NCBI GenBank assembly: GCA_947479085.1
Contig: CANJYB010000001.1
Location: 1-64,000, forward strand
Length of the DNA: 64,000 bases
Direction: 5' to 3'
From: Bacteroidota bacterium
Lineage (GTDB): Bacteria; Bacteroidota; Bacteroidia; 2-12-FULL-35-15
The first letter of the stretch is position 1. Each line of letters begins with the position of its first letter. Shown here in pieces: positions 18,426 to 63,637 of this stretch. The position numbers and the translations under genes are program-made. A model generated the notes under the pieces. It saw nothing but the letters and a program-made list of their open reading frames with translations, ran no database searches and was not told the origin of the DNA.

Positions 18426-21086
18426 TTAAAAGTTCAAATAAGTTATTGCTTTTTCAAGAGCTTTACCCATTCCATTCGAATTGGTTCCACCAGCAGTAGC
18501 GTAAAAAGGTTGCCCTCCACCGCCACCTTGTATTTCCTTTGCTATTTCACGAATAATGTTTCCTGCATTCAGATTTTTTTCTTTCACCAGGTTGTCAGAA
18601 ATAATAACCGATAAGCTCGGTTTGCCTTTTACTTCAGCTGCAAGCACCATAAACAGGTTATCTACCTGCGAACGAATTTCGAATGATAAATCCTTTATTG
18701 CATCAGCGGAGTCGAGTTCTATTTTTTCAGCTATAAAATTAACTCCATTTACAGATTGCTTTTTATTGATTAACTCGGCTTTCAAAACTTTTGATTTATC
18801 ACGAAGCATTTGGTCAATTTGCTTTTGAAGTTCTGTATTGTGTTCCATTAACCCTTGTAAACTCTTTACAACATCTTTTGGGTTTTTAAGCAATGCTTTT
18901 ACCTGGTTTACCAATGCAGTCTGTTGAATAAAAAATTCTTCAGCCTTATCCGAAGTGATTGCTTCTATTCTTCGTATACCTGCGGCCACAGCACTTTCTG
19001 AGGTTATTTTAAATAAGCCTATTTGTCCGGTAGCAGGCACATGCGTGCCGCCACATAACTCAATGGAATAGTCTTTATCGAAAGTAACTACACGAACCAC
19101 ATCACCGTATTTTTCTCCGAACAAAGCCATAGCACCTAACTTGCGAGCTGCATCTATAGACATTTCCTTAATATCTGACGGAATATTCTGGCGGATTTTA
19201 TGATTTACTATTGCTTCAATCTCTGCAATTTCTTCCTCTGTAACTTTCGAAAAATGGGAAAAATCGAAACGCAAATACTCCTCGTTTACCAAGGAACCTT
19301 TTTGTTCAACGTGAGTTCCCAATACCTTTCTTAATACTGCATGAAGTAGATGTGTAGAACTATGATTATCTTCTGTTAATTGCCTTTTTTCTATATCCAC
19401 CTTAGCTATGAAAGGTGAAGCAAAATTCTCAGGTAATTTTTCTGCAAAATGAATAATTATTCCGTTCTCTTTTTTTGTATCAGTAATGTTGATTTTTTCA
19501 TTCGCTGATACAAGTAAACCTGTATCACCAACCTGTCCACCGCTCTCAGCATAAAAAGGAGTTTTATCAAGAACCAGTTGAAATTGCTCTTTGCCTTTTG
19601 CTTTTACTTTTCGGTATTGAATAATATTCGATTCGCATTCCAGTTGCTTGTAACCAAGAAACGTTCTCCCTCCTTCTTCCGGTTTTCTTCCTTCCACTAT
19701 TATCCAGTCTCCGGTATCCACAGCAGTAGCGGCACGTGAGCGAACTTTTTGCTTTTCAAGTTCTATATTAAATCCATCTTCATCAATACTTAAACCATAC
19801 CCCCGGGTAATTAACGAAGTAAGATCAAGTGGAAAACCATAGGTGTCATATAATTCAAAAACAGTGGGGCCATCCACAATTTGTTTCTTTTCGTTCGAAA
19901 CATTAATACAAACCTGGTCAATCCGTTTCAATCCGTTTTCAAGCGTACGGAAAAAAGAAGTTTCTTCTTCTTTAATTACTTTTTCAATTAATAATTTCTG
20001 AGCAGAAAGTTCAGGGAATGCCTGCCCCATCTGGTGCGCTAAAACAGGAACCAGGCGAAACATAAACGGTTCTTTTAAATTTAAAGATTGGTATCCGTAA
20101 CGAATAGCCCTTCTTAAAATTCTTCTGATTACATATCCTGCACCTGTATTTGAAGGTAACTGACCATCGGCAATGCTGAATGAAATAGCACGGATATGAT
20201 CGGCAATTACACGCATCGCTATATTCACAATAAGTTGTTTCTGGTGCTTGTTCTCCTCCTGTGGTTTGTATCTTAGCCCTGATAAATCTTCAATCTTATC
20301 AAGCAATGGTTTAAAAACATCCGTATCGTAATTGGATTGTTTGCCCTGCAAAACAACGCATAACCGTTCAAATCCCATACCTGTATCCACATGTTGTGCA
20401 GGTAGTTTTTCCAAACTTCCGTCTGCCTTGCGGTTGAATTCCATAAACACATTGTTCCAGATTTCGATAACCTGTGGATGGCCTGCGTTTACTAATGTTT
20501 TGCCATCAATCTTATTACGTTCTTCATCCGTACGAATATCGCAATGAATTTCCGAACAAGGTCCGCAAGGACCCATTTCACCCATTTCCCAGAAATTATC
20601 CTTCTTATTTCCTTTCAGAATCCGGTCTTCGGCAATGTATTGTTTCCATAAATCAAAAGCTTCCTGGTCAAACCCCAAACCATCGTCTGCACTGCCCTCG
20701 AACACGGTAACATATAATCGTGATTTATCTATTTTATAAACTTCAGTAAGTAATTCCCATGCCCAGTTAATGGCATCTTTTTTAAAATAATCGCCAAAAC
20801 TCCAGTTGCCAAGCATTTCGAACATGGTATGGTGATAAGTATCCACTCCCACTTCTTCCAGGTCGTTATGTTTACCGCTTACACGCAAACACTTTTGAGT
20901 ATCTGCCACACGGGGATATTTAACAGGTGCATTGCCCAGAAACAAATCTTTGAATGGCGCCATTCCTGAATTGTTGAACATCAGTGTAGGGTCGTTCTTT
21001 ACTACCATGGGTGCCGAAGGGACTATTTCATGCCCTTTCGACTTAAAAAAATCTAAAAATGTTTGCCTTACTTTACTCGATTCCAT
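18426..21086 (-). CDS. alaS: Alanine--tRNA ligase
   Basis: An 886-residue class II aminoacyl-tRNA synthetase that charges tRNA-Ala. The catalytic domain begins [21 protein letters not shown] and includes [19 protein letters not shown] and GCGPCSEIH-like [10 protein letters not shown]. The editing domain has the zinc ligands in [10 protein letters not shown] and [12 protein letters not shown]. The C-terminal C-Ala domain ends in [14 protein letters not shown]. The length matches full-length AlaS. A TACTTTTG promoter element lies about 55 bp upstream. Confidence 0.97.
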
Positions 21087-21139
21087 CTTATATATTCCGA
21101 TTCCGGATTGTTGTTTCTGTATATGTAAAAATAATTCTG

Positions 21140-21147
21140 CAAAAGTA
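21140..21147 (-). promoter_or_regulatory. alaS promoter -7 element
   Basis: TACTTTTG on the minus strand fits the TAnnTTTG consensus and leaves a leader of about 50 nt before the alaS ATG. No clear TTTG was found 20 nt upstream. Confidence 0.45.
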
Positions 21148-21201
21148 ATTTAATTCTTTTATCTGTGGGAGGAAAAGTATTAAGGTGCTGTGGTTTCACG
21201 T

Positions 21202-21230
21202 AAAAAAAGTTTCCCTCCTGTTTGGGATAC
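21202..21230 (-). terminator. Terminator after the small secreted protein gene
   Basis: On the minus strand, GTATCCC and GGGAAAC pair with one mismatch around an 8-nt loop, followed by seven T. It lies about 26 bp after the stop of the gene at 21256-21444. Confidence 0.5.
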
Positions 21231-21255
21231 CTTTCTTTACTTTTTAAGGCATAAG

Positions 21256-21444
21256 TTAATAAATATTAGGGCAGGCACTGCCACTCATACTTGCCCAACT
21301 CCCCCAGTTGGGGATAGTTTCTGAAACAGAATCTATCTGATTTACTTTACTGGTTCTTGCAAGATTTTTAGAACCTAAAGTTACTTGCCCTTTTATAAGC
21401 AGAGCATTAATAAGTAGCACAATACAAATGAAAATCCTTTTCAT
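21256..21444 (-). CDS. Small secreted protein, 62 residues
   Basis: A short frame with a clear signal peptide (MKRIFICIVLLINALLIKGQ) followed by a mature part of about 42 residues containing SVSETIPNWGSWASM and a single Cys. It starts 6 bp after the stop of the T9SS-cargo gene and ends before a terminator, so it is probably translated from the same message. I do not recognise the family. Its mature part might be a peptide or a small partner of the cargo protein. Confidence 0.6.
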   Translation of the reverse strand: MKRIFICIVLLINALLIKGQVTLGSKNLARTSKVNQIDSVSETIPNWGSWASMSGSACPNIY

Positions 21445-21450
21445 TTGCTC

Positions 21451-22392
21451 TTATTGTTTAACCACCTTTTTAGTAGTTATTCCCTTGTCAGTTTCCACTT
21501 TAACAAAGTAAATCCCATTTGGCTCGCTGGTTAGGTTTACAGTTGGGTTAGTGGTTGTTATTATTTCCTGGCCTAATAAGTTGGTTACTTTTATTTCCTT
21601 TATTTTATTTCCTTCTGCACTTATACTAAAAACTCCACTTGTTGGATTAGGTGAAATCAAAACATTATTATTGCATAATTCATCCACGCCTAACCCACTA
21701 CCTGTACAATCCAATACACTCACATCATCTATATAGTAATAAGAAGTAAAACTTCCATTTACTGTTAAAGTATCTGTAGTAGCCACAGAATTAAAATTGC
21801 CAATTATAATAAATTTTTCCCCGCCAATTGCAATGTATTCACCAGATACTAAAGTCCAATTTGTCGTATCACTTATTATATTAGTATCAATAATCTGAGG
21901 CTGCAAAAAGGAAAGATTAGTAGCAGATGTGTCAGTATGAGTGTTAGAAAAATATAAAGCAACATTGTTTGTGGCAAAAGCATGACTATCAGATAAACTC
22001 ACATAAAAATTCACACAATATTTATGTTGAGATATTAATATACTGTCTAATTGCACCTGAATATATTCTCTACCACTTGTAAAGGAAGCAAAAAATACTT
22101 CACCAACGTAACCATTACCTGTATGGGCATTTTGAAATCCAATCCAATTTGAAGGAACATTGCAATCAGGATAAACTGAACAGCTATTATATAAATCGGA
22201 ACTTCCTGAGGTTGGAGCATCCCAAGGTGGAACTAACCCGTGATTAACACCTGACAAGCAGTTAGAAGAAATATAGAAATTGCAAGTATTCACAATTTCA
22301 AAACTCCAATTAGGTACAAGGTTTTGAGCAAGGCAAATATGCTGACTCGACAGGTCTATTAGAATGAGAAATACGAATAAATATTTTTTCAA
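21451..22392 (-). CDS. T9SS cargo protein with type A sorting domain
   Basis: A secreted protein of about 313 residues. A signal peptide (KKYLFVFLILIDLSS...CLAQ) is followed by NLVPNWSFE, a beginning common in Bacteroidota carbohydrate-binding-like modules, and a beta-sandwich region. The C-terminal 70 residues are a type A T9SS sorting domain: ISPNPTSGVFSI, LLGQEI and GIYFVKVETDKG...KKVVKQ. The only upstream ATG (22458) would add 22 polar residues before the signal peptide; the TTG at 22390-22392 directly precedes KKYLF and is preferred, though not proven. Function unknown beyond export to the surface or medium. Confidence 0.8.
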   Translation of the reverse strand: MKKYLFVFLILIDLSSQHICLAQNLVPNWSFEIVNTCNFYISSNCLSGVNHGLVPPWDAPTSGSSDLYNSCSVYPDCNVPSNWIGFQNAHTGNGYVGEVFFASFTSGREYIQVQLDSILISQHKYCVNFYVSLSDSHAFATNNVALYFSNTHTDTSATNLSFLQPQIIDTNIISDTTNWTLVSGEYIAIGGEKFIIIGNFNSVATTDTLTVNGSFTSYYYIDDVSVLDCTGSGLGVDELCNNNVLISPNPTSGVFSISAEGNKIKEIKVTNLLGQEIITTTNPTVNLTSEPNGIYFVKVETDKGITTKKVVKQ

Positions 22393-22521
22393 GTCCTGTT
22401 TTTGTTTAGAAGGTAAATGTAAAAAATATACGTTTCCACTTGAATATTCTTTAACCAAAACCTTCCATTTGCTTCTTAAATTCTTTTTTCGTCTGTTTCA
22501 ATCGTTTTAGTGAACCGAACG

Positions 22522-22836
22522 ATGGTAACATGCACCAAATAAATGCTGTTGGTGTATATTACCATCGAAATGGTGACAATTAGAATGCTGATGGTGTAAG
22601 TTACAATGGAAATGACGACAGTAAGAATGCTTTTGTTTACTGTTACCATCGAAACAGTAACAATAAGTATACTGATGGTGTATGTTGCAATCGAAATGGT
22701 GACAATAACAATGCTTTTGGTGTATGTTATAATGGTAATGGTGACAATATAAATGCTAATGGCGAACATTACAAGTGAAAGTGTTACCATTTCGATTGTT
22801 TGTGTTACTGTTTCGATTGTAATCTGCTTTTTTCTG
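22522..22836. repeat. 21-bp tandem array, about 15 units
   Basis: Units begin every 21 bp at 22522, 22543, 22564, 22585 and on to 22816. Two unit types alternate, giving a 42-bp super-period: one with atcgaaatggtgacaat and one with atgctgatggtgta. The minus strand is open throughout with a hydrophobic heptad (Ile, Val and Thr). The array ends about 65 bp upstream of the T9SS-cargo gene's longer start, in the 22459-23280 gap that holds no other recognisable gene. Confidence 0.92.
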
Positions 22837-22934
22837 GTTTTTGTAGCAAACTACCCGATAAAGAGTGAAGTAATGAACATGAAATTTTAAAGAAAAAGCA
22901 GAAAAAAGTAAAAATATCAATCCTTCTAATAAGG

Positions 22935-23018
22935 ATAATCAGTATTCGGATGAGATGAATGATTGTCTGAATAGGAATAATGATTGGTCGGATGGGATGA
23001 ACTATTATCACGGGCATT
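22935..23018. repeat. Short 21-bp array, four units
   Basis: Four units start at 22935, 22956, 22977 and 22998, with alternating beginnings ataat and tgaa and a shared ggatggga/gaatagga right part. The period equals that of the neighbouring larger array, but the sequence differs. It is separated from it by about 100 bp of AT-rich DNA. Confidence 0.75.
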
Positions 23019-23280
23019 TTCGGGGTTTCCATTGATAATTGTTTTAATTTTTAATTGAAGTTCAGGATAAATTATTCATCCTTTCCTAATTTCAAAAAAC
23101 TGAATCAACAACAGTGAGGGATCAATGGCAGAGGGGGTACACATGAAACAATCAGCTAAACATGTTAATTCTAAAGCAAATTTAGGAATATAAATTATGA
23201 ATAACAAGAAAAAAGGCTGAAATGTGACTTTATCCTTTGGTTAGAATTAATGCGAAAAGAAAATTTCCTGATAGATGTTT

Positions 23281-23530
23281 CTATAAATAAACATTCCCCA
23301 CCGGGGCAGCGTATAATTTAATAAAGAGGTTAAACAGCACATCCTTTTCACCATCTATAGTAGAAGTTTTGGAGGAAATATAGTGAAGGAAATTTTCTTT
23401 TTCCTCATTGGTGTAATCTGTAGCGTAAGCAGTATTATTATTCAGAATATCAGCAGCAATAAAATTTACCGGCCAGAGTTTATACCCTTTGTAAATTTGC
23501 TTGTCTACCAATGCGGTCAGCAGTTTTATT
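23281..23530 (-). pseudogene. Duplicated 3' fragment of the acyltransferase gene
   Basis: About 80 codons reading VDKQIYKGYKLWPVNFIAAD and onward to AAPVGNVYL, closely similar (roughly four residues in five) to the last part of the acyltransferase at 25684-26820. Similarity starts at an AAAAAATAAAAC stretch that also contains the stop codon of the gene at 23526-24191, and it ends at the stop. It has no start of its own. Together with the full gene it brackets three secreted-protein genes as direct repeats. Confidence 0.85.
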
Positions 23531-24191
23531 TTTTATCAGAATATTTTTTTTCCAGGTTCCGGTACTCTGATTTTCTTATTTGTTCCAGCATATTTAATAT
23601 TGTAAAAGAAGAATGAGGTTTTACACTTCCTCCATGAAACGGTGCATCAATATAAAAAGAAAATAATTCTTTTTTGTTACTGTTATCAAACACGGTAACA
23701 TAATAGGAAGTGTGATTTTCAATTTTATTTATTGTCTCCGTAAACACAATAATTCCGAAAGTGTTTTCCACCAAAGGGATTGGATAATTCTGAAGGGATT
23801 CCTGAATTTTTGATTTTTCAATATGATGTTCTATATTATCGTATGTCTGAAAATTTTTCACATCCATGCCCCTATTGATATATGCTATCAGGGAGGTATC
23901 AATCTTTATGTATGCTTTTGAGAAAGTTTTTTCAAGATTGTATTTACCATGTTCTTTTATCACCAACCCATTTAAGAAAGGGACAACAAGGTTTTTGAAT
24001 TCACCAGGCTCCATCAGTCCAGGCATGGCTCCACTAAACATACCACCTATGTATTTGGCATGTGTATAATCTATACCATACCAAATAACCTTTGCCTCCG
24101 GCTCAAAGAAGCCTGAAACTTTTTGCTGTGCAAAAAGAAAAGAAGATGTAAGTAACCCGAAAGTTAATAAAACAGAATGCTTAAAGGGCAT
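23526..24191 (-). CDS. Secreted protein of unknown function, 221 residues
   Basis: A signal peptide (about 1-22, ending SFLFAQ) precedes a mature part with no recognised family. Visible features are AKVIWYGIDYTHAKYIGGM near the start, a central hydrophobic strand FGIIVFTETINKI and a charged C-terminal helix. It abuts the upstream gene (its ATG directly follows that gene's stop) and its own stop overlaps the duplicated acyltransferase fragment. Probably periplasmic. Confidence 0.75.
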   Translation of the reverse strand: MPFKHSVLLTFGLLTSSFLFAQQKVSGFFEPEAKVIWYGIDYTHAKYIGGMFSGAMPGLMEPGEFKNLVVPFLNGLVIKEHGKYNLEKTFSKAYIKIDTSLIAYINRGMDVKNFQTYDNIEHHIEKSKIQESLQNYPIPLVENTFGIIVFTETINKIENHTSYYVTVFDNSNKKELFSFYIDAPFHGGSVKPHSSFTILNMLEQIRKSEYRNLEKKYSDKK

Positions 24192-24827
24192 TTATTTACC
24201 TTTGTATATCTTTATCATTTCCCTTCCAAGTGTTATTCCGCCAAACCAGAAACAATTTTTAAACCGGCCAATAAAACTAAAATCTAAATCATTGCCTACC
24301 AATGTACCCATTACCTGATAAAGAAATACGCTACCTGCTACTTTATTAGGATTAGCGGCTTCCACAAACTCAATTCTGAAATCGGAATAAGCGGGGGCTC
24401 CTCTCACAACAATGCCAGCTTTTCCGGTGGTTACGGTCAAGGGATAAACTTTTAGAATGTATTTTGCCCCCTCCACTTTTGGACCTGCTTTTATATGCAT
24501 TTTTTTCATGCTACCGGTAAAGTCTTTCATCCATCGGTCAATAAATACACCACCATCCATCATCTTTTCTCTTTCCCATCTTTCCAGGTATTTATCACCT
24601 TTGCCTGGTACTTCTGCATTGTAAGCTTTTGCCACTTCACTTTGGTATTCCATTTCCTTTTTCCCATTATCAAAAGTCATCGAATCGTAAAGAATAACCA
24701 CTTTGAGTAGTTTTTCTCCCTTAAGAAATTCAAGATCTTTTCCTTTTGACCATCTGATGGTTTGGCTGTAACCACCAATTATGTTGATTGAAATTGCGAA
24801 TACAATTACTGCTATTACTTTTTTCAT
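24192..24827 (-). CDS. Secreted protein, family shared with 24947-25567 (paralogue)
   Basis: 211 residues with a signal peptide (about 1-21). The mature part shares an ordered set of features with the next gene upstream: FLKGEKLLKVV near the start, PGKGDKYLERWEREK in the middle, AKYILKVYPL, TGKAG and FRIEFVEA. This suggests a common beta-rich fold of unknown function. It is directly followed by the gene at 24191. A frameshifted third copy is at 41210-41901. Confidence 0.75.
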   Translation of the reverse strand: MKKVIAVIVFAISINIIGGYSQTIRWSKGKDLEFLKGEKLLKVVILYDSMTFDNGKKEMEYQSEVAKAYNAEVPGKGDKYLERWEREKMMDGGVFIDRWMKDFTGSMKKMHIKAGPKVEGAKYILKVYPLTVTTGKAGIVVRGAPAYSDFRIEFVEAANPNKVAGSVFLYQVMGTLVGNDLDFSFIGRFKNCFWFGGITLGREMIKIYKGK

Positions 24828-24946
24828 AATTATTTTTTGTTGTTTTGGTTTAATACTTTTTAATATTTGTTATGTATGGTCTTCGTAATGGTAATTCGCC
24901 AAAGTGAAAAAAATTGGGAGTTGAAAAATTTAATTATAATTTATTG

Positions 24947-25567
24947 CTATAATTTTTTTAATATTTCAGTTGCCACCAGTTTTCCTGCTTTTGCAAATGC
25001 CTGGTTTATCCATGGATAAAAATTGTCATCGTTTCTTGGAGTAATCATTACATTCATATTATTCATTTGAAATGATGCGAGGACTTTTTGTGAACTATCT
25101 AAAATATCTATCCGGAAATTACCCCCAGCTGGAACCTGTCCTATCATAGTAGAAATCTTGTTGTCCTTACCGGTTCTTAAGGCTTTAATATGAACTTCCA
25201 TTTTATACTGACAGTTTTGACAAGCATCATTTAAACTCAACTTGCCTTTTGTTTTCCTGTTAAACTCGCCAGAAAATGAAGGATTAAATAAAAAAGAACG
25301 GTTTTGAATCCATTCCTTTTCCCATTTATCTCCCATTCCAGGGTTTTTAATATTTCTGTTCTTTTTTTGATCAGCCACAAAATCTATTTCTGTTTGGTTA
25401 CCATTTATGGTTTCTATTTCGTATATAAATTCCACTTTGATATCTATAACACCTTTTAAAAAACTTAAACTTGGAGTATCTGTTTTGCATACTATGTCCT
25501 GACTTTGGATTGTTCTTGAAACGAAAAAAAAAGAAAGAAGTATAAATAAAGAAAGGGTTTGTTTCAT
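24947..25567 (-). CDS. Secreted protein, paralogue of 24192-24827
   Basis: About 206 residues. The ATG at 25567 starts a signal peptide (MKQTLSLFILLSFFFVSRTI, ending QSQ); the upstream frame to 25591 is rejected because a TATTTTTG promoter element (25589-25596) would cut it. The mature part shows SLSFLKGVIDIKVEFIYE, NPGMGDKWEKEWIQNR, a CQNC pair, TGK and FRIDILDSSQKVLAS, matching its neighbour in order and spacing. Function unknown. Confidence 0.75.
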   Translation of the reverse strand: MKQTLSLFILLSFFFVSRTIQSQDIVCKTDTPSLSFLKGVIDIKVEFIYEIETINGNQTEIDFVADQKKNRNIKNPGMGDKWEKEWIQNRSFLFNPSFSGEFNRKTKGKLSLNDACQNCQYKMEVHIKALRTGKDNKISTMIGQVPAGGNFRIDILDSSQKVLASFQMNNMNVMITPRNDDNFYPWINQAFAKAGKLVATEILKKL

Positions 25568-25588
25568 TAAAATAACTTTTGGTGGATG

Positions 25589-25596
25589 CAAAAATA
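25589..25596 (-). promoter_or_regulatory. Promoter -7 element for the secreted-protein islet
   Basis: TATTTTTG on the minus strand fits TAnnTTTG and lies 22 bp before the ATG at 25567. It may drive the three islet genes as one unit. No good -33 element was seen. Confidence 0.4.
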
Positions 25597-25683
25597 GAAA
25601 ATAAAATAGAATGGCAGTAAATGAGTTGATTCTTCTTCTGTTTTGGTAGAAAGTAATGGCTTGTATTAATAAAACAAGAATAC

Positions 25684-26820
25684 TCAGTTTTTAAAAACAT
25701 TCCCCACTGGAGCAGCATATAATTTAATAAAGAGGTTAAACAGGACATCCTGTTCGCCATCAATGGAAGCAGTTTTGGAGGAAATATAGTTAAGGAAATT
25801 TTCTTTTTCCTCAGAGGTATAATGCGCGGAGAAAGTAATGTTGTTATTCAGAATATCAGCAGCAATAAAATTTACAGGCCAGAGTTTATAGCCTTTGTAA
25901 ATTTGCTTGTCTACCAATGTAGTCAGTAGTTTTATTTTTTCATTTTCATTGGCAGCCGTGTCTATTTCGTTCAGTTCATTTAATATTGGGGTACCCACCT
26001 TCATGTGAATCCTGCCTTTTGGCTGAATAATACCGGTAATGATACTGTTCAGGTCTTCTCCTTCAGCTTTTATATATTTGGTAAGCAAGCCCGAAAGGTA
26101 TAATTCCTGCACTTTAAACACATCGCAGGGCTCATATTCGTATGAAATAGTAAGCGGAACAATTTTTAATTCAGCAAAGTTTTCTGCAAAACTGCCCGTT
26201 CCGCTAATGTTTAACATTTTCAGCAAACCCGTTTGGGTCTGGTCGTTTCCATCCTTGGTTCTCCCGTTTCGCTGGGCTATCCATACAGAAGTATTTTTAT
26301 CAACCAAGGTATGGCGTATGTAGGCAGAAAGTTTTTTGGAAATATCATAGAGTTCGCGGCTAGTACCTTCGCGCATTACTGCAAACATCCTGTTCAGCCT
26401 GCCAAAGTCGGTTATAAAACCTTCTTCCATCAGGTTTTTGCCAAAGGTAATTTCGGAAGTGGCAAAGCCATTTTCTACTAACAAAATTTGCAGTATAGCC
26501 GAATCCAATAAAATATCGCGATGATTGGCAACAAAAAGGTAAGCTTCATTTTTGTCAAGATGCTCAAAACCAGAACAGGTTAGCTCTTTTGCAGAGCGGG
26601 CAACGATGGTTCGAATAGCAGGATGCATAAACTCCACCTGGAATTCCAGATTGGAATTTACTTTTTCGGCCTTGGCCTGCACCTCTTCATAACTCATGGA
26701 CGGCCATAAATTATTAACCAGTTTCATGAACAAAGGGTCTTTTATAATCTTTTGCAATACATCATGAGCCTCATTGTCGCAATAGGGGCGAATGTCATCG
26801 AAATGGAAAGGAGTGCTCAT
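25684..26820 (-). CDS. 1-acyl-sn-glycerol-3-phosphate acyltransferase-like protein
   Basis: 378 residues. The catalytic motif is FVANHRDILLDSAIL (about 92-106), with the His and Asp expected of glycerolipid acyltransferases, and later conserved segments are FAVMREGTSRE and WIAQRNGRTKDG (about 180-191). It is longer than PlsC, closer to the Bacteroidota group annotated as glycerol acyltransferases. The enzyme would act at the inner membrane in phospholipid or ornithine-lipid synthesis. Its 3' end is duplicated at 23281-23530. Confidence 0.85.
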   Translation of the reverse strand: MSTPFHFDDIRPYCDNEAHDVLQKIIKDPLFMKLVNNLWPSMSYEEVQAKAEKVNSNLEFQVEFMHPAIRTIVARSAKELTCSGFEHLDKNEAYLFVANHRDILLDSAILQILLVENGFATSEITFGKNLMEEGFITDFGRLNRMFAVMREGTSRELYDISKKLSAYIRHTLVDKNTSVWIAQRNGRTKDGNDQTQTGLLKMLNISGTGSFAENFAELKIVPLTISYEYEPCDVFKVQELYLSGLLTKYIKAEGEDLNSIITGIIQPKGRIHMKVGTPILNELNEIDTAANENEKIKLLTTLVDKQIYKGYKLWPVNFIAADILNNNITFSAHYTSEEKENFLNYISSKTASIDGEQDVLFNLFIKLYAAPVGNVFKN

Positions 26821-26967: not shown

Positions 26968-27309
26968 TTAAACGGCCATAACGGGAGCTAAACCCACACT
27001 GCGTATTTTGTTATGGTTAAGTAATACTGCCTTTCCGGCTTTCAGGGTCGATTTTTTTAGGTCAAATACTTCATATTCAATAGTCACCATGAAATAATAA
27101 GTTTTTGCCAAAACTTCAAAAATCTTTATTTCCATATTCAGCAGCAGGCAATTGCTTTTGTTTTGTTTGGGTTCATTAATAAAGTCTTTCCAGATATCTT
27201 TATTAATAAGATAGAATTCGATGGCTTCTTCTTTGTCTTGCATGATATTAGGTTTTAATTTGTTTTTAAATTCAGTTTTTGGTGCTTTTTTTCCTTTACC
27301 GGTACTCAT
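26968..27309 (-). CDS. Hypothetical protein, 113 residues
   Basis: An open frame with a basic N-terminus (MSTGKGKKAPKTEFKNKLKP) and a beta-rich body (LLLNMEIKIFEVLAKTYYFM, then EYEVFDLKK), ending VGLAPVMAV. No signal peptide or membrane helix. I do not recognise it. The amino-acid composition is protein-like and no competing frame exists, so I think it is real. It stands alone between a gene-free 147 bp and a gene-free 212 bp. Confidence 0.6.
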   Translation of the reverse strand: MSTGKGKKAPKTEFKNKLKPNIMQDKEEAIEFYLINKDIWKDFINEPKQNKSNCLLLNMEIKIFEVLAKTYYFMVTIEYEVFDLKKSTLKAGKAVLLNHNKIRSVGLAPVMAV

Positions 27310-37022: not shown

Positions 37023-37194
37023 CACCTCCTCCCTCCGAATCCGGTCCTTTCCGGATTTGGAGGTTAACACTTCTTAATAACTGTCCAATCAAAAAAAAGG
37101 ATACTTCGCGCGGGTCAGGCGCAGCCTGATAGCCTACCACTTTTAATAACCTTTTAGCCAATACCCGCAAAAAAATAAAATTACTCTCTTATTC

Positions 37195-37570
37195 AGAAAC
37201 CTCCCAGCAATTTCAGAAATCAACCTGTAGTTTCAGCCACCACCCAAAAGTTTCAAATAACACCCCAAACAGGTGAAATCACCTCAAAATAGTATAAAAT
37301 CACTAGCGAGCGGCAAGAAATTACTCGCGAGAGCGAAGAAATCACTCTCGAGAAAGAAAAAATCACTCGTGAGCACGAAGAAATCGCTCGTGAGCCCAAA
37401 GAAATGACCCTCGAGAACGAAGAAATCACTCGTGAGCGCGAAGAAATTAACTTTTTTGGCAATAAATCACCCATGAGTGCGAAGAAATCACTCGTGAGCG
37501 AGAAGAAATCACCCCGCAGTTTCAGAAATTACTCCACAGTTTCAGAAATCACCTCTCAGTTTCAAAAAAC
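37195..37570. repeat. 21-bp tandem array, about 17 units, with palindromic cores
   Basis: Eight core units start at 37281, 37302, 37323, 37344, 37365, 37386, 37407 and 37428, each exactly 21 bp apart, most carrying CTCGCGAG, CTCGAG or CTCGTGAG followed by gaagaaatcac. On both sides the array continues with a cagtttcagaaatcac word at 20-21 bp spacing. Three units (37449, 37511 and 37531) are 20 bp long and break any reading frame, which argues against coding. It ends about 90 bp before the C45 gene. Confidence 0.9.
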
Positions 37571-37633
37571 CTCTTTTTTAAAAACCTCATAAAAAGCTAA
37601 ACAACTTTGATTCCCCATCCTTTCAATATTTCC

Positions 37634-41209: not shown

Positions 41210-41901
41210 ATGAAAATACTAAAATTGCTGGCATTTCCTTTACTTTTTTACATTTACATTAAACTCAGCCAACTCCCAAGACATCAAACAATTCGACAAA
41301 ACTCTTTCCTTTTTATCAAGACAAATCAAATTGAACATCACCTATATTTATGTTGGAATGATGGTGGGTAAAAAGAAGAGGGTGATTATAAAAAGAGAAG
41401 ATAGATTATTACAATAAAAAGAAAGCAGGACACGGTAAAGTGTTGGGAAAAAATGGATTAACAATCGTTCGAAAATTTAGGAACCAAAGTTCGAAGAGAT
41501 GATAAATCGGATGTTAGTTAAAGGGAAAGGAACAGCTTTAAGAGATGTCACAAATGCAAAATACACTATCCAGCTAAAATCAGTTGTGATAGAGCCTGGT
41601 GTAAATCCTTTAGCCATGCAGTTAAGTTCATATTTCAATATTTAAATAGCCTATATTGAAACTTCTACTGGAAAGATAATTTCAAAAAGGTTTAATGGAG
41701 GTTGTGGAAGGAATAAAGGTAAATGATGATGAATATGACTTTAATGCTTCAGGCAGGGGAGGTGAGTGTTATGCTAAAACCGGAAAAACAGTTGGAGAAT
41801 CTATTGTGGAGGCAAATAGAAAATTATTTTCAGGTCAAAATATTGTTTTTTTATACCCTTTGGGAAAAAAGGATGGGAAGGAACTTTTTTCCCTTCTGTA
41901 A
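41210..41901 (+). pseudogene. Decayed copy of the secreted-protein family at 24.2-25.6 kb
   Basis: No frame is open across it, but pieces in shifted frames align in order with the genes at 24192-24827 and 24947-25567. ATG 41210 begins a signal-peptide-like stretch; after a frameshift comes SQDIKQFDKTLSFLSRQIKL and NITYIYVGMMVGK; after another comes DYYNKKKAGHGKV; then EPKFEEMINRML and VTNAKYTIQLKSVVIEPG; then IAYIETSTGK. At least three frameshifts or stops are needed. It fills the 41133-41967 gap. Confidence 0.8.
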
Positions 41902-52333: not shown

Positions 52334-54316
52334 TTACTCCACAAAATACATATCAACTTCTCCTTTTCCTTTTGCAGTTATTTTCCCTCTATGAATACAG
52401 TTAAATTCATTTTTTACCATTTCATAGGTACTGCCGCTTATGTTTACCTTCCCCACTTCTCCGCTGCTTTCCATGCGTGATGCCGTATTTACCGTATCAC
52501 CCCAGATGTCATAAGCGAATTTTTTAACACCTACTATACCTGCCACCACAGGGCCGGAATGAACACCAATGCGGATTTCGAAAAACAACTCCCCCGCTTT
52601 TTCTTTTTTTACCCGGTGTTCGTGCATAAATTTCTGTATTTCCAGAGCTGCTTTTACCACATCGCCCGCATGCGTTTTATTAGGTGTTGGCAATCCTCCG
52701 GCTGCCATATACGCATCACCAATGGTTTTAATTTTTTCAATACCATATTTAAGTGTAATGTGGTCGAAGGCTGAGAAACATTCGTTTATCTCTGCAACTA
52801 ATTGTTTCGGACTTAGCTTTTCGGATAGTTGAGTAAACCCTTTAAAATCGGTAAACAACACAGTTACTTCATCTATCAGCTGTGCTTCGGCACTTCCTTT
52901 TTCTTTCAGTTCTTCAGCCACTTTAGCCGGGAGGATGTTTAATAATAGTTCATCGCTGCGATGTTTTTCCATTGTAATAATTTTTTTCTGTTTATTGGTT
53001 ACTCTGAAACGGTTGTACATAAACCCTCCAAACACTACCATTAATGCCAATCCGCCATACAATGCATAACTTTTTGTTTGTTCCTGTTTTAGTTCCGAAG
53101 TAATTACTTTCTTTTCTTCTATTGATTTAATACTATCCGCCAGCTGTTTCTTCCCAAAATCATATGTCATTTGCAGCGCTATTGTTTTCTTAGTATTTTC
53201 ATTATTAACCATACTATCCAGAAAATTTTTGTACAGCTTGTAATGCTCCAAAGCCATTGCAAAATTGCCTTGCGCACTATCCAGTTGCGACAACGAATAA
53301 TAACTGTCTTTAAGATCCTCAAAACTTCCAATTTCCTTTGAAAGCACACTTGCTTTATTCAGGTACTCAGAAGCCTTTTTAAATTTCTTCTCAATAAAAA
53401 ATATATTCCCGATGTTGTAATAAGAGGTAGCAATGGCAAATTTATCTCCTATTTCTTCATCTATTTCTAAAGCTGAAAAATAACTCTTCTCTGCTTCAGC
53501 ATACATGCCTTGCCCTTTATAAATAAGTCCGATATTGTTATAAGAAGTAGCAATCCCAATCTTGTCCCCGGTTTCTTTTCTTATTTTTAAAGCAGCCAGA
53601 CTATTTGTAAGTGCTTCAGGATAATTATCCTGACCAATACAAATAAGTGACATATTATTATAACAGCTGGCAATACCAAATTTATTGCCCAGACGATTCA
53701 TTAATTTTACGCAAACTGCATAATTTTTTAAGGCTTCAGTATAATTGCCAAGGATAGTATAAACAAGTCCGATATTGTTATAACTGCCTGCTATGCCTTG
53801 TTCATCTTTTAATTCTGTTCTGATTTTTAGCGCAGCAAAATAATTGGTTAAAGCTTCCGGATAGTTGCCCTGCATTCTGAATGCTTCACCTATCAGATTG
53901 TAAGAAGCTGCAATACCTTTTTTGTATCCTATTTCTTTTGTTATTTTCAATGCCTTTAAATGAAATTCAAGAGCAGCAGAATAATCTCCACTGTCAATAT
54001 TTACAGCACCAATGCTGTTATAAGCATTGCCTGTTCCCTTTTTATAACCTATTTTTTCTGAAACTTCGAGGCTTTGTCTTGCGTATTTCATTGATTTATC
54101 AAGGTTATTACCCCACAATAGTTTAGATATACTATACAGAATGTCTGCCTCTGCAGTATCATTAATACTTGCCACATTGTGTCGTAGTTTTACTTTTTCA
54201 TCCTGCAAAGTTTTTAGCTTTGTTTCAAGAGAATCGACCAGGTGTTGGTCTTGCGCTGTTGCAATGAATAGTGAACAATGAATAGTGAAGATCAAAAGGA
54301 AGAGAACTTTTTTCAT
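52334..54316 (-). CDS. TPR-linked adenylate cyclase, copy 1 (660 residues)
   Basis: A signal peptide (about 1-22), about seven or eight TPR units (about 50-370; recurring NIGLIY and YPEAL), a coiled-coil, one membrane helix (SYALYGGLALMVVFGGFMY), then a class III cyclase domain (about 450-660). Both metal Asp are present (LFTDFKGFT and TIGDAYMA). Lys in EKIKTIGD and Asp in YDIWGD specify ATP rather than GTP; the transition-state Asn and Arg are in DTVNTASRM. The TPRs would be periplasmic and the catalytic domain cytoplasmic. The signal peptide contains a perfect 14-bp tandem duplication (IHCSLFIA region). Last gene of a four-copy tandem. Confidence 0.92.
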   Translation of the reverse strand: MKKVLFLLIFTIHCSLFIATAQDQHLVDSLETKLKTLQDEKVKLRHNVASINDTAEADILYSISKLLWGNNLDKSMKYARQSLEVSEKIGYKKGTGNAYNSIGAVNIDSGDYSAALEFHLKALKITKEIGYKKGIAASYNLIGEAFRMQGNYPEALTNYFAALKIRTELKDEQGIAGSYNNIGLVYTILGNYTEALKNYAVCVKLMNRLGNKFGIASCYNNMSLICIGQDNYPEALTNSLAALKIRKETGDKIGIATSYNNIGLIYKGQGMYAEAEKSYFSALEIDEEIGDKFAIATSYYNIGNIFFIEKKFKKASEYLNKASVLSKEIGSFEDLKDSYYSLSQLDSAQGNFAMALEHYKLYKNFLDSMVNNENTKKTIALQMTYDFGKKQLADSIKSIEEKKVITSELKQEQTKSYALYGGLALMVVFGGFMYNRFRVTNKQKKIITMEKHRSDELLLNILPAKVAEELKEKGSAEAQLIDEVTVLFTDFKGFTQLSEKLSPKQLVAEINECFSAFDHITLKYGIEKIKTIGDAYMAAGGLPTPNKTHAGDVVKAALEIQKFMHEHRVKKEKAGELFFEIRIGVHSGPVVAGIVGVKKFAYDIWGDTVNTASRMESSGEVGKVNISGSTYEMVKNEFNCIHRGKITAKGKGEVDMYFVE

Positions 54317-54350
54317 TTGTTTTTTTTAATCGTTAACTGTTTACTATTAG

Positions 54351-56297
54351 TTATTCACTGACGAAATACATATCCACCTCCCCTTTATTTTTCGCTTCTA
54401 TTTTTCCTCTGTGCTCGCATTTAAAATCATTCTTTACCAATTCATAAGTAGAACCCGAAATATTTATTTTCCCATTCACACTGTGCTGTTCCATACGTGC
54501 TGCTGTGTTTACGGTGTCTCCCCAGATATCATAGGCAAACTTTTTTACTCCTACTATGCCTGCCACCACCGGTCCGGAGTTTATTCCAATTCTAATATTA
54601 AATTTTCCTCCTTCTACAATCCGTTTATTTATGAAATCCATTATTTCAATAGCAGCTTTCACAGTTTTTTTTGCATGGTCTTTATCTTCATTAGGCATGC
54701 CGCACACAGCAAGGTAAGCATCGCCTATTGTTTTTATTTTTTCCAACCCATTGCGTTCTATTATTTCATCAAAAGCAGTGAAGCACTGGTGTATTTCTCT
54801 TACCAGTTCTTTCGGACTAAGTTTTTCGCTGATGGAGGTAAACCCTACAAAATCGGTAAACAAAACCGATACATTATCAAAATGTTTGGCTTCTGCACCC
54901 CCCGTTGCTTTCAGTTCTTCTGCTACTTCGGCAGGCAATATATTTAATAATAAATCATCACTTCGCTTTTTTTCTTTTCCTATTTTATTTCGTTGTCTAA
55001 AAAACACAGAAGCCACCAGCACCATTAATGCCAACCCACCATACAAGGCATAACTCTTGGTTTGTTCCTGTTTTAGTTCAGCTGTTATAACTTTCTTTTC
55101 TTCAGCTGATTTTATACTATCTGCTGTTTGCTTTTTATTAAAATCATAAGTCATTTGAATAGCCAATGTCTTTTTTGTGTTTTCGGTGTTTACCAAACTA
55201 TCACGGTAAATAATGTAGAGTTTGTAATGTTCAAGTGCTTTATTAAAGTTACCTTGTTTGTTATCCAATGTTGCCAGGAGATCATAGCTTGATTTAATCC
55301 TTTCCAAACTACCAATCTCTTTTGCAAGAGACAGTCCTTTATTTAAATATTCAAAAGCTTCATTGTATTTTTTCTGATTTGTATAAAGTTCACCAACGTT
55401 AGTAAGACCGAGTGAAATATTGTTTTTATCTCCAATTTCTTCATATATTTTTAATGAAGCAAAATAATTATTCAAAGCATCAGGATAATTGCCCTGAGAA
55501 TAATAAATATTTCCAATGGTATTGTAACAATTACCAATACCATTCAAGTCTTTTATTTCTTCCATCATCTTTAAACAGGTGAAAAGATTCTTTAATGCCT
55601 CCTCGAATTTTGATTCGTTTTTGTAGGCACGCCCAATATTGCCATAAGAATTAGCTATCCCTCTCTTATCCCCAAGTTTCAATCCTAATTTTAAAGCAGA
55701 TAAATGATTCTTTAATGCTTCCGAATAATTTCCCAGATTGGTATAAATAATTCCGATATTGTTATGATTCTTTGCTTGCAATGATATATTTCCTGATTCT
55801 TCATTAATTTTTAAAGCTTCAAAATATAACTTTAATGCTTCAGGATAATTGCCATGCACCCTATAAACTTCTCCCATATTGTTGTAAGTACCGGCAATGT
55901 CATTTTTGTCGCCTATTTCCAATCTAATCTTCAATGCTTTTTTATGAAATTCAATGGCTGATAAATAATCGCCCATGTAATTTTTGCCAATACCCAAACT
56001 ATTATAAGCATTACCTATTCCTTTTTTATAATTTATTTGTTCTGATAAAGCCAGACATTGCATTGCATAATCCATTGACTTGTCAGGATTATTGCTCCAA
56101 TAGGCTTTCGAAATGGAATATAATATTTTGGCGGAAGCAGTATCATACTTACCCGCAATATTATGGCGCAGTTCTTTTTTTTCGGATTCAAGGGTTTTTA
56201 GTTTTGCTGTAAGGGAATCGACCAGATGCTGATCTTGCGCAAAAGCAGTGAAAAGCAAACAGTGGATGATGAACAGTAAGAGGATTAAATATTTCAT
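54351..56297 (-). CDS. TPR-linked adenylate cyclase, copy 2 (648 residues)
   Basis: Same architecture as the first copy: signal peptide (ending TAFAQ), TPRs (about 50-370), membrane helix YALYGGLALMVLVASVFF and a class III cyclase (LFTDFVGFTSISE, EKIKTIGDAYLA, DIWGDTVNTAARM). Catalytic and ATP-selecting residues are intact. The TPR part differs from the other copies while the cyclase part is near identical to copies 3 and 4, so the copies may sense different partners but give the same cAMP signal. It ends 34 bp before the start of copy 1. Confidence 0.92.
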   Translation of the reverse strand: MKYLILLLFIIHCLLFTAFAQDQHLVDSLTAKLKTLESEKKELRHNIAGKYDTASAKILYSISKAYWSNNPDKSMDYAMQCLALSEQINYKKGIGNAYNSLGIGKNYMGDYLSAIEFHKKALKIRLEIGDKNDIAGTYNNMGEVYRVHGNYPEALKLYFEALKINEESGNISLQAKNHNNIGIIYTNLGNYSEALKNHLSALKLGLKLGDKRGIANSYGNIGRAYKNESKFEEALKNLFTCLKMMEEIKDLNGIGNCYNTIGNIYYSQGNYPDALNNYFASLKIYEEIGDKNNISLGLTNVGELYTNQKKYNEAFEYLNKGLSLAKEIGSLERIKSSYDLLATLDNKQGNFNKALEHYKLYIIYRDSLVNTENTKKTLAIQMTYDFNKKQTADSIKSAEEKKVITAELKQEQTKSYALYGGLALMVLVASVFFRQRNKIGKEKKRSDDLLLNILPAEVAEELKATGGAEAKHFDNVSVLFTDFVGFTSISEKLSPKELVREIHQCFTAFDEIIERNGLEKIKTIGDAYLAVCGMPNEDKDHAKKTVKAAIEIMDFINKRIVEGGKFNIRIGINSGPVVAGIVGVKKFAYDIWGDTVNTAARMEQHSVNGKINISGSTYELVKNDFKCEHRGKIEAKNKGEVDMYFVSE

Positions 56298-56309
56298 TTT
56301 TTTTAATTG

Positions 56310-58280
56310 TTAACTGTTCACTGATAGTTGTTCACTGACGAAATACATATCCACTTCTCCTTTATTCTTCGCTTCTATCTTCCCTCTTTGTTCACACTTG
56401 AAATCATTTTTTACTAATTCATAAGTACTGCCACTTATATTTATTTTCCCATTTTGGCTGTGCTGTTCCATACGTGCTGCTGTGTTTACGGTGTCTCCCC
56501 AAATATCATAGGCAAACTTTTTTACTCCTACTATACCTGCTACTAAGGGACCAGAATTAATACCAATTCTAATATTAAATTTCCCCCCTTCTACCATCCG
56601 TTTATTTATGAAATCCATTATTTCTATGGCTGCTTTCACCGCTTTTTTTGCATGGTCTTTATCTTCCATTGGCATACCGCATACCGCAAGATACGCATCG
56701 CCAATAGTTTTTATTTTTTCCAACCCATTACGTTCAATAATTTCATCAAAAGCAGTGAAGCATTGGTGTATTTCTTTTACTAATTCTTTCGGACTAAGTC
56801 TTTCGCTGATGGAGGTAAACCCTACAAAATCGGTAAAAAGCACAGATACATTATCAAATTGTTTTGCTTCAGCTGCTCCTGTTGCTTTCAGTTCTTCGGC
56901 TACTTCGGCAGGCAATATGTTTAACAACAAATCATCACTGCGTTTTTTCTCAATTCCTATTTTATTTCTTTGTTTAAAAAACACAAAAGCCACCAGCACC
57001 ATTAAAGCCAAACCACCATACAAAGCGTAACTTTTGGTTTGTTCCTGTTTCAGTTCTGCTTTTATTACTTTTTTTTCTTCCGTTGATTTAATGCTATCTG
57101 CAGCCTGTTTTTTATTAAACTCATAATTCATTTGCAGAGCTACTGTTTTTTTAGTGTTTTCATTATTATTTAAACTGTCGCGCATGGCTATAAACAGTTT
57201 GTAATGCTCCAATGCTTTATTAAAGTTACCTTGTGCGCTGTCCAGTTTTGTTAAATTATTGTAGATTTCTACAATATTATCCAAACCTCCCATCTCTTTA
57301 CTAAGTAACAGTCCTTTATTCAAATATTCAGATGCTTCTTTGAATTTTTTCTCTTTCAAATAAACTTCTCCAATGTTTGTATAACAAATGGTAATGCCAT
57401 CTTTTTGCCCAATTTCTTCAAATGTTTTTAATCCGGCTAAGTTATACTTCATTGCTTCGGGATAATTGCCTTGTTTATAATAAATACTTCCAAGGTTAGT
57501 GTAACAGGCACCGATGGTCCGCTTAAACCCGATTTCTTTACTTATTTTTAAAGAAGCAAAATAACTCTTCAATGCTTCGGGATAATTGCCTTGGTTTTCA
57601 TAAACAATTCCAATATTGTTGTAGGAATTAGCTAGGCCATTTTTATTGCCGCGTTCTTCACATATTTTTAAAGAAGCAGAATAATTCTTCAATGCTTCGG
57701 GATAATTACCTTGATGCTGATAAACAAGTGCCATGTTGTTGTAACACATTGCCATGCCTGCTTTATCTCCATTTTCTTCAACTTCTTTTAAAGAAACAAA
57801 ATAATTCTTCAATGCTTCAAGATAATTGCCCTGGTTGTAATTAACAGTCCCGATTCCGATGTAAGAATCGACAATACCTTTTTTGTCCGCTATTTCTTCT
57901 CTTATCGTTAATGATTTTTTGAAAAATTCCAATGCAAGTAAATTATCTCCTTTATAAATATTAATATTACCCATACTGTTATAAGCATTGCTTATTCCTT
58001 TCTTATAACCTATCTGTTCTGATAAACTTAGGCATTGATTGGCGTATTCCATTGCCTTGTCAGGGTTGTTACTCGAATAGGATTGTGCTAGTTTATTTAA
58101 AATGTTTGCTTCTGTTGTATCATTCATACTGGGATTATCATTTCGCAGTTCCTTTTTTTCTGCTTGCAAGGTTTTTATTTTGGCAGTAAGGGAATCGACA
58201 ATATGCTGGTTTTGCGCAAAGCAGGGGACATGGAACAGAGTATATGGAACAGCAAATAGTAGGAATATTAATTTTTTTAT
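56310..58280 (-). CDS. TPR-linked adenylate cyclase, copy 3, apparent ATA start
   Basis: Full-length homology extends 37 codons upstream of the first usual start (a TTG at 58167-58169) to position 58280, giving 656 residues, exactly as long as copy 4. The first 25 or so residues read as a signal peptide (KKLIFLLFAVPYTLF, ending CFAQ) like the paralogues, but the codon expected to be ATG is ATA (58278-58280), and an in-frame TAA lies three codons further upstream. So the gene has lost its normal start, uses a weak ATA start, or starts at the TTG without an export signal. Catalytic residues are intact. Its cyclase domain is a mosaic of copies 2 and 4. Confidence 0.85.
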   Translation of the reverse strand: MKKLIFLLFAVPYTLFHVPCFAQNQHIVDSLTAKIKTLQAEKKELRNDNPSMNDTTEANILNKLAQSYSSNNPDKAMEYANQCLSLSEQIGYKKGISNAYNSMGNINIYKGDNLLALEFFKKSLTIREEIADKKGIVDSYIGIGTVNYNQGNYLEALKNYFVSLKEVEENGDKAGMAMCYNNMALVYQHQGNYPEALKNYSASLKICEERGNKNGLANSYNNIGIVYENQGNYPEALKSYFASLKISKEIGFKRTIGACYTNLGSIYYKQGNYPEAMKYNLAGLKTFEEIGQKDGITICYTNIGEVYLKEKKFKEASEYLNKGLLLSKEMGGLDNIVEIYNNLTKLDSAQGNFNKALEHYKLFIAMRDSLNNNENTKKTVALQMNYEFNKKQAADSIKSTEEKKVIKAELKQEQTKSYALYGGLALMVLVAFVFFKQRNKIGIEKKRSDDLLLNILPAEVAEELKATGAAEAKQFDNVSVLFTDFVGFTSISERLSPKELVKEIHQCFTAFDEIIERNGLEKIKTIGDAYLAVCGMPMEDKDHAKKAVKAAIEIMDFINKRMVEGGKFNIRIGINSGPLVAGIVGVKKFAYDIWGDTVNTAARMEQHSQNGKINISGSTYELVKNDFKCEQRGKIEAKNKGEVDMYFVSEQLSVNS

Positions 58281-58303
58281 TTTTTTTTATGTTAACTGTT
58301 CAC

Positions 58304-60274
58304 TTATATTTGTTCACTCACAAAATACATATCCACTTCTCCTTTATTCTTCGCTTCTATCTTCCCTCTTTGTTCACACTTGAAATCATTTTTTACTAAT
58401 TCATAAGTACTGCCACTTATATTTATTTTCCCATTTTGGCTGTGCTGTTCCATTCTGGCAGCAGTGTTCACGGTATCGCCCCAAATATCATAAGCAAACT
58501 TTTTTACTCCTACTATTCCTGCCACTACTGGACCCGAGTTTATTCCAATACGAATATGCAGAATTTCGGATTTCGAATTTGTGATTTCAGATTTGCGAGA
58601 ATTCATAAATGCCATTATTTCAATTGCTGTTTTCACTGTATTCTTTGCATGGTCTTTGTCTTCCATCGGCATACCGCATACAGCAAGGTAAGCATCACCT
58701 ATGGTTTTTATTTTTTCCAAACCATTGCGTTCTATTATTTCATCAAAGGCAGTGAAACAAAGATGTATTTCTTTAACCAATTCTTTTGGGCTTAGTCTTT
58801 CGCTGATATTAGTAAACCCAACAAAATCGGTAAAAAGCACAGATACATTATCAAATTGTTTTGCTTCAGCTGCTCCTGTTGCTTTCAGTTCTTCGGCTAC
58901 TTCGGCAGGCAATATGTTTAATAACAAATCATCACTGCGCTTTTTTTCTTTCCCTATTTTATTTCTTTGTTTAAAAAACACAGAAGCCACTAATATCATT
59001 AACGCCAAACCACCATACAAAGCGTAACTTTTGGTTTGTTCCTGTTTCAGTTCTGCTTTTATTACTTTTTTTTCTTCTGTTGATTTAATACTGTCTGCAA
59101 CTTGTTTTTTATTAAACTCATAATTCATTTGCAGTGCTACTGTTTTCTTCGTGTTTTCATTATTATTTAAACTGTCACGCATTATTATAAACAGTTTATA
59201 ATGCTCCAAGGCCTTATTAAAGTTACCCTGGGTACTATCTAATATTGCTAAATGATTATAATTCGATTTAATCATTTCCAAACTGCCAATTTCTTTTGCA
59301 AGCGTCAATCCTTTTTTAAAATATTCAGAAGCCTCCTTATATTTTTTCTCTCTTGTATAAGTTACTCCTATATTGCCATAAGAAGTAGCGATGCCATTCT
59401 TATCACCAATTTCTTCTCTTATTTTTAAGGAAGCGAAAAAATTCTTCAACGCTTCGGGATATTTACTTAGATTATCACAATAAATGGCTCCAATGTTATT
59501 GTATGAAGATGCAACACCTTGTTTATCTCCTATTTCTTCTTTTATTTTTAAAGAAGCGAAATTATTCTTTAAAGCTTCGGGATAATTCCCTTGGTGCCAA
59601 TAAATAAGTCCTATATTGTTGTAAGAAGCAGAGATACCCTCTTTATCCCCTATTTCTTCACTTATTTTTAAAGAAGAGAAGTGATTCTTCATTGCATCAG
59701 GATAATTTTCCTGGGAAGTGTAAACAAGTCCTATGTTGTTGTAAGAAGCGGAGATGCCCTGTTTATCACCTATTGCTTCTCTGATTTTCAATGAAGCAAT
59801 ATGATTCTTCAATGCTTCGGGATATTTGCCTTGGTTTTGATAAATATTTCCGATAGTATTGTATGAGTCAGAAATGCCTTTTTTGTCATTAATTTCTTCT
59901 TTTATCTTCAAGGCTTTTTTTTGAAATTCCAAGCCAATTGAGTAATTTCCTTTAGTATTATTGACGGCACCCATACTGTTATAGGCATTGCCTATTCCTT
60001 TCTTATAACCTATCTGTTCTGATAAAGTAAGGCATTGATTGGCATAGTCCATTGCCTTATCCGGATTATTGCCCCAATAAGCTTTGGAGAGAGCATATAA
60101 AATGTTGGCTGTTATACTGTCATTGATACTAGCATTATCATTTCGCAGTTCTTTTTTTTCTGCTTGCAGTGCATTAAATTTTGTGATGAGAGAATCGACC
60201 AAGTGCTGGTCCTGAGAAAAAGCAGTGAACAGCGAACTCTGAATAATGAATAGTAAGAGGAGGCGTTTTTTCAT
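58304..60274 (-). CDS. TPR-linked adenylate cyclase, copy 4 (656 residues)
   Basis: First gene of the tandem. Signal peptide (ending TAFSQ), about eight TPR units, membrane helix and class III cyclase with all catalytic residues (LFTDFVGFTNISE, EKIKTIGDAYLA, DIWGDTVNTAARM). Between the dimerisation helix and the strand HIRIGINSGP an extra segment NSRKSEITNSKSEILH replaces the KRMVEGGKFN of copies 2 and 3; it is encoded by AATCCGAAAT-like repeat words. A TATATTTG element lies about 63 bp upstream of the ATG and may drive all four copies. Confidence 0.92.
   Translation of the reverse strand: MKKRLLLLFIIQSSLFTAFSQDQHLVDSLITKFNALQAEKKELRNDNASINDSITANILYALSKAYWGNNPDKAMDYANQCLTLSEQIGYKKGIGNAYNSMGAVNNTKGNYSIGLEFQKKALKIKEEINDKKGISDSYNTIGNIYQNQGKYPEALKNHIASLKIREAIGDKQGISASYNNIGLVYTSQENYPDAMKNHFSSLKISEEIGDKEGISASYNNIGLIYWHQGNYPEALKNNFASLKIKEEIGDKQGVASSYNNIGAIYCDNLSKYPEALKNFFASLKIREEIGDKNGIATSYGNIGVTYTREKKYKEASEYFKKGLTLAKEIGSLEMIKSNYNHLAILDSTQGNFNKALEHYKLFIIMRDSLNNNENTKKTVALQMNYEFNKKQVADSIKSTEEKKVIKAELKQEQTKSYALYGGLALMILVASVFFKQRNKIGKEKKRSDDLLLNILPAEVAEELKATGAAEAKQFDNVSVLFTDFVGFTNISERLSPKELVKEIHLCFTAFDEIIERNGLEKIKTIGDAYLAVCGMPMEDKDHAKNTVKTAIEIMAFMNSRKSEITNSKSEILHIRIGINSGPVVAGIVGVKKFAYDIWGDTVNTAARMEQHSQNGKINISGSTYELVKNDFKCEQRGKIEAKNKGEVDMYFVSEQI
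58556..58600 (-). repeat. Intergenic-type repeat inserted in frame in cyclase copy 4
   Basis: About 45 bp containing AAATTCGAAATCCGAAATTC and encoding KSEITNSKSEILH, the same words as in the truB insert at 28098-28169. The frame is kept and the catalytic residues are unaffected. Confidence 0.7.
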
Positions 60275-62767: not shown

Positions 62768-63244
62768 TGTTTGTTTTATTGTCTGTTGTCTTTAAAGGTT
62801 GCCGGTAACATATAAATATATGAAGCTTTAAAAATACTAATTAATTCATTATTAGTATACCTTAAAAATATACGGAGTTTTGTGTAAAGATAAATGAAGT
62901 TTTTAAAAGTTCAATATGAACCTTAATTCGTTTTAAAGGAACAATTATAAGCTTTCATTATTTTCTTAGAAGTTAACCAACCTTTCCTAATCCTTAAATA
63001 GTAAATTCTCCAAGCCCCCCAAAAAAACCTCCATTCCTTCCTCCCATTTGATTCAATCTTCCAAAACCAAGTGATGACTTTATGGGGGTGTTTTGTGGTC
63101 GTATAAATTTTTCTGCATTGCTATTTGGTATTTCGGGAAAATGTCCTAACTTTGTGAGAGCTAATGTATGGCATGGTGGAAAGTGAACAAATAAAACTGG
63201 AAACCGAACAAAAAAAGGTAGTTGTCGTGACATTGTTATGCCAC

Positions 63245-63538
63245 GTATTGGAACTAAAAGGCGAATACTTGGCAGAGAAATGGCAAGACTTTTCCAAACT
63301 AGGACATGTCGTGCCCAAGTTTGGAAAATGCATGGCGTAGTTTAGAAAAGTAATGGAATAGTTAGGGCAATACTTAGCATATAGAAGGTAAGTATTGGAA
63401 CAGATAAGGTACTACTTACCATAAATGGTGGAATACATGACATAATGATGGCATGTATTGCCATAAAGGTGCGAAGTAGTAGCATAGTTGAGCCGCGTAT
63501 TGGCATATAAATGGCGAGTAGTGGCATTAAAGTGGCAA
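63245..63538. repeat. 21-bp tandem array, 14 exact-length units
   Basis: Fourteen consecutive units of exactly 21 bp (294 bp in total), each beginning gta or tac-like and most containing tggcat..aaatggc. Copies are degenerate but the spacing is perfect; weaker copies extend to about 63160. The array ends 99 bp before the ATG at 63638. The rest of the 62768-63637 gap is AT-rich and holds no recognisable gene. Confidence 0.92.
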
Positions 63539-63637
63539 GGAAAGAAGGGGTTTTTGAGAGGCAAATAAGTTTATAAGGATGAACGGAATGAACCAATTAT
63601 AAATCAATACTAACACTTAACCAATACCTATATTACC

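Follow-up and report, generated by a model that had tools for sequence, protein, structure and literature searches.

The closest described counterpart of the locus analysed here is the e14 prophage at icd in Escherichia coli K-12, which is accompanied by a 163-bp displaced 3' end (PMC6379469). As in that case, a displaced 3' gene end lies here behind a set of intervening genes while the gene itself carries an alternative, functional 3' end; in contrast to e14, a prophage that integrates site-specifically, the present locus has no integrase, and relatives of its intervening genes are native neighbours both of that gene and of alaS. A second comparison is with microhomology-mediated deletion and duplication, including homology-facilitated illegitimate recombination, with which the locus shares an A/T-rich junction of 9-12 nt, the lack of a recombinase and a truncated gene copy left behind, and from which it differs in nothing of principle, the origin of the partner copy aside. 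The gene concerned may also correspond to one with a known setting, the phospholipid/glycerol acyltransferase that belongs to flexirubin (flx) clusters together with FlxY (PMC3992019). In many genus members the acyltransferase and one of the protein families described below (the B family) adjoin FlxY and a C45-type gene, whereas here the acyltransferase and its neighbours A, B and C lie apart from that cluster, with truB on one side and alaS on the other. Comparing the locus with these systems and with its relatives, we conclude that the duplicated acyltransferase tail is real and most likely an ordinary scar of genome rearrangement, not the footprint of a mobile element.

The window analysed, a stretch of 64,000 nucleotides, lies on a 325-kb contig (C1) of a Bacteroidota genome of 4.28 Mb in 50 contigs. 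On its minus strand it carries an intact acyltransferase gene (acyl, 25684..26820) encoding a PF01553-like protein of 378 aa, whose match to the Pfam Acyltransferase family (E 1.3e-4) falls just under the gathering score. The 3' end of this gene (25695..25940) recurs at 23289..23534 on the same strand, forming an ungapped direct repeat of 246 nt with 88% DNA identity, and a genome-wide copy search found exactly two copies of it. The initial annotation had seen the acyltransferase end (25684-25940) recur in the same orientation at 23281-23530 with about four residues in five alike, which needs only these sharper boundaries and is close to the identity we measured for the encoded protein ends (about 83-85%). 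The two copies are in frame with each other over 81 aligned codons, and the detached copy has no internal stop; it terminates two codons past the aligned part at its own TAG (APVGNVYL-stop, against APVGNVFKN-stop in the intact gene) and has no upstream gene body, codons 1-293 being missing. An in-frame repeat of this length and identity cannot be chance. No exact match between the copies exceeds 32 nt, and past the stop codons there is no alignable DNA behind either of them. Between the copies are three genes whose N-termini resemble signal peptides, matching the three secreted-protein genes annotated initially, and we refer to them as the islet.

The detached end begins exactly at the stop of gene A, the islet gene next to it. 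Both copies open with AAAAAATAAAAC (23523-23534 and 25929-25940), a junction sequence in common that had already been noticed, and the first nine bases of the detached copy's version double as the KK-stop end of gene A. These nine bases, AAAAAATAA (23526..23534, minus strand), open the detached end, and identity with the acyltransferase gene runs on to 23523 and beyond. The 9-nt match is native to both partners: in a relative, G005, gene A has AAGAAGTAA as its end at this position, and GAAAAAATAAAA is native to the region of codons 294-297 of the acyltransferase gene in several relatives. Among random joins of gene A and the acyltransferase gene, a shared sequence of at least 9 nt has a frequency of about 1e-4. 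A short junction sequence native to both partners, a partner truncated by the loss of its first 293 codons and a contig lacking tyrosine integrases together correspond to microhomology-mediated rearrangement, of which the AAAAAATAA junction is a signature; an att core of equal length would look alike. Joining the islet flanks in silico restores an intact acyltransferase frame of 377 aa. Another 9-nt sequence, CAGATAAAA, which lies just upstream of alaS and resembles the end of gene A (TCTGATAAAA), was spotted by eye and set aside as too weak to use.

Both ends appear to have evolved under constraint. Pairwise dS between them is 0.38 and dN 0.072, with dN/dS (omega) about 0.19. Nonsynonymous differences number 13, whereas about 35 would be expected, assuming equal rates, had selection ceased to act on the detached end at the split (P about 1e-5). 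On the same assumption, this count rejects a copy that became a pseudogene immediately after duplication. Moreover, the 12 residue changes between the ends all fall at positions that vary in the family, none of them on columns invariant in 15 relatives. The small number of nonsynonymous changes and their restriction to variable positions suggest that, for most of the time since they separated, both ends were part of functional genes, and such purifying selection during the divergence of two copies is the mark of a once functional second gene. In codon maximum likelihood with free branch lengths, omega = 1 on the detached branch is not rejected by itself, and the constraint argument therefore needs roughly equal rates. 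Given such rates, and leaning on the clock to this extent, the sequence comparison indicates that both 3' ends may have served in functional genes until recently.

The islet genes, all on the minus strand, encode putative exported proteins of two families, one comprising gene A (23526..24191) and the other the paralogues B (24192..24827) and C (24947..25567), a kinship not mentioned in the initial annotation. None of the three has a credible family in Pfam or NCBIfam. AlphaFold models of A (mean pLDDT 90) and B (mean pLDDT 85) show a weak likeness in fold, with TM of about 0.3-0.5, to small envelope proteins, those of the CsgG, GNA1162 and LpoB type for A and PelC for B. Both families have a habitual place in relatives. 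In three Bacteroidota metagenome-assembled genomes (MAGs) outside the genus (L183, L184 and L185), A, B and the acyltransferase follow one another in this order on one strand, with spacings between a few dozen and about 110 bases, in an operon-like arrangement, while here the order is B-A. Within the genus, an A-family gene lies directly behind the acyltransferase in six members (G017, G011, G003, G006, G013 and G031), and one or two B-family genes lie behind FlxY of the flexirubin cluster in several members. The window itself retains a decayed B-family gene directly behind FlxY (41238..41814, plus strand), a position at which the gene is intact in several genus members. No A or B genes were found in the more distant acyltransferase loci examined (L187-L233). 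Gene B has no match among plasmid records, and gene C has only a 24% match to one unannotated phage record of 5.9 kb. The best explanation of these distributions is that the islet genes are not cargo and would instead represent two families habitually found beside this acyltransferase and the flexirubin cluster, which in this genome have been retained beside alaS. As a separate observation in the window, four adjacent paralogous genes at 52334-60274 encode proteins of about 620-660 aa that are TPR-like by eye, with 120-bp tandem repeats in at least two of them, and relatives of these proteins also occur near the acyltransferase in some genus members.

Comparison across the genus places the two sides of the locus separately. 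Of the 58 other genomes searched, about half have an acyltransferase orthologue. The genus sample comprises 36 genomes, all at species-level distance, in which the nearest acyltransferase (G015) is 81% identical; the relatives named here are MAGs of uncultured Bacteroidetes or Bacteroidia. In the species tree G000, G015, G005, G012, G004 and G034 form one clade, its deepest order left unresolved. G015 and G004 share the left flank of the acyltransferase (a gene at 26968-27309, truB and uppP), and the acyltransferase gene therefore stands in its inherited place on the truB side. The sequence behind its 3' end varies among the close relatives G015, G004, G005 and G034; the relatives compared, including the nearest species, G015, have one acyltransferase end each with unrelated genes downstream. 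No second acyltransferase tail was found in any other genome where the gene occurs. Among the 36 genomes of the genus the duplicated tail is unique to this species, and no full second copy was found in that sample, which includes no other genome of the same species.

On the other side, alaS (18426..21086, minus strand) connects the islet with G005. In that genome (L066:4532-5207, contig C129) the start of C is deletion-fused to the end of A directly upstream of alaS, in the order and strand seen here, with B gone and with the C and A parts 61% and 53% identical to the window proteins; about 70 bp of DNA upstream of alaS also aligns between G000 and G005. The deletion-fused remnant indicates that the cluster erodes by deletion in G005 too. 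No acyltransferase sequence is present at the alaS locus of G005, whose acyltransferase lies on another contig. Because the C and A remnant adjoins alaS there without an acyltransferase end, the linkage of islet and alaS is probably older than the junction of islet and acyltransferase and, as far as sequence comparison goes, probably predates the arrival of the acyltransferase ends. Compared with the relatives' loci, the segment between alaS and the detached end (21087-23288) has no match besides its own repeats and the DNA upstream of alaS. It contains a gene for a T9SS-sorted secreted protein (21451..22392, minus strand), with 61 matches in this genome, many in small clusters and the closest 60% identical; this gene belongs to an expanded, dispersed family of about 60 members and cannot be placed. 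The window also has degenerate arrays between genes, repeating with a strict period of 21 bp, at 1430-1895, 22519-22870, 37189-37584 and 63177-63590, in which lags of 21 and 42 are strong and lags of 20 and 22 absent, while the unit sequence differs from array to array; arrays of similar look were seen by eye in relatives at L066 and L156. A length of 21 bp is about two helical turns.

Taken together, the detached 3' end is probably what remains of a second acyltransferase copy, diverged from the first, that was fused behind gene A by microhomology-mediated recombination. Two diverged, functional versions of the acyltransferase would have come to flank C-B-A, through duplication or import from a sister lineage, and the second copy would have drifted apart from the resident gene at a time when both were functional. 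A join across 9-12 nt of A/T-rich microhomology would have linked A's stop codon to codon 294 of the second copy, and the DNA between the joined points would have been lost, leaving that copy without its first 293 codons. A formerly complete second copy is an inference, as are the choice between its possible origins and the order of events. Several points count against this account: no genome with a complete second copy was found; the repeat ends at the stop codons, rather abruptly for a simple duplication at a dS of 0.38, an ending that also fits a replacement end; codon maximum likelihood by itself does not reject a neutral detached branch; and the order of A and B differs from that outside the genus. 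A simple tandem duplication of the acyltransferase 3' end with C, B and A was rejected, as behind the detached end there are neither remnants of these genes nor homology beyond the stop. The old single-crossover insertion proposed initially thus survives only in modified form, as one illegitimate join across 9 nt of microhomology between two acyltransferase versions that had diverged as working genes.

The main rival, which we consider unlikely, leads to the same end product by homology-facilitated illegitimate insertion. In this scenario, a stretch with the order truB-acyl-C-B-A from a sister lineage would have entered by a homologous crossover on the truB and acyltransferase side and by a microhomology join of A's stop to the resident acyltransferase, whose 3' end would have been left behind the islet. 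It accounts for 12% divergence under selection, the exact junction at A's stop, the missing integrase, the intact gene now present and the 377-aa frame from the joined flanks, but no donor genome was found, and the C and A remnant beside alaS in G005 stays unexplained unless donor and recipient had that arrangement in common. Quite improbable, in our judgement, is the e14-like reading, in which an integrative element would have used the acyltransferase 3' end as its target, supplied a replacement for it as e14 does for icd, and survived as a remnant without an integrase. Its bare anatomy, put forward in the initial annotation, does fit: the homology opens at a short identical core, AAAAAATAAAAC, at both ends and closes at the stop codon, the gene end is displaced behind the islet, protein-level constraint acts on both ends and the joined flanks give an intact gene. 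Its context lends it no support. The absence of an integrase from the islet, already recorded, extends to the whole contig: in a genome-wide search that covered tyrosine integrases (PF00589), none of the nine matches lies on C1, the islet has no unexplained open reading frame of integrase size, no site-specific recombinase was recognised in or beside it, and no tRNA or tmRNA target occurs within the window. The islet families are native to the locus, gene B is not seen on plasmids and gene C has only the one 24% phage match, G005 has the C and A remnant with no acyltransferase end, and no reuse of the site was seen in the relatives compared, none of which offers a second example. A version in which a small element without its own integrase uses the 3' end of this flexirubin-associated acyltransferase as its site, supplies a replacement end and moves the A and B envelope-protein families with the help of a recombinase elsewhere in the genome is highly improbable. 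We give still less credence to a chimeric assembly, with two strains merged at the repeat; the genome is in many contigs and, like its relatives, probably a MAG, but an exact match of at most 32 nt between the copies speaks against this, as does the agreement of the alaS side with G005 and of the truB side with G015 and G004.

A useful by-product of this comparison is a conserved link, of which we found no earlier description, between this acyltransferase and two exported-protein families in the vicinity of flexirubin genes. For the locus itself, the case shows that the anatomy of a displaced tail, a replacement tail and apparent cargo can be explained by the joining of two diverged copies of a gene across microhomology, and it indicates which comparisons separate such a join from the anatomy of an integrative element.
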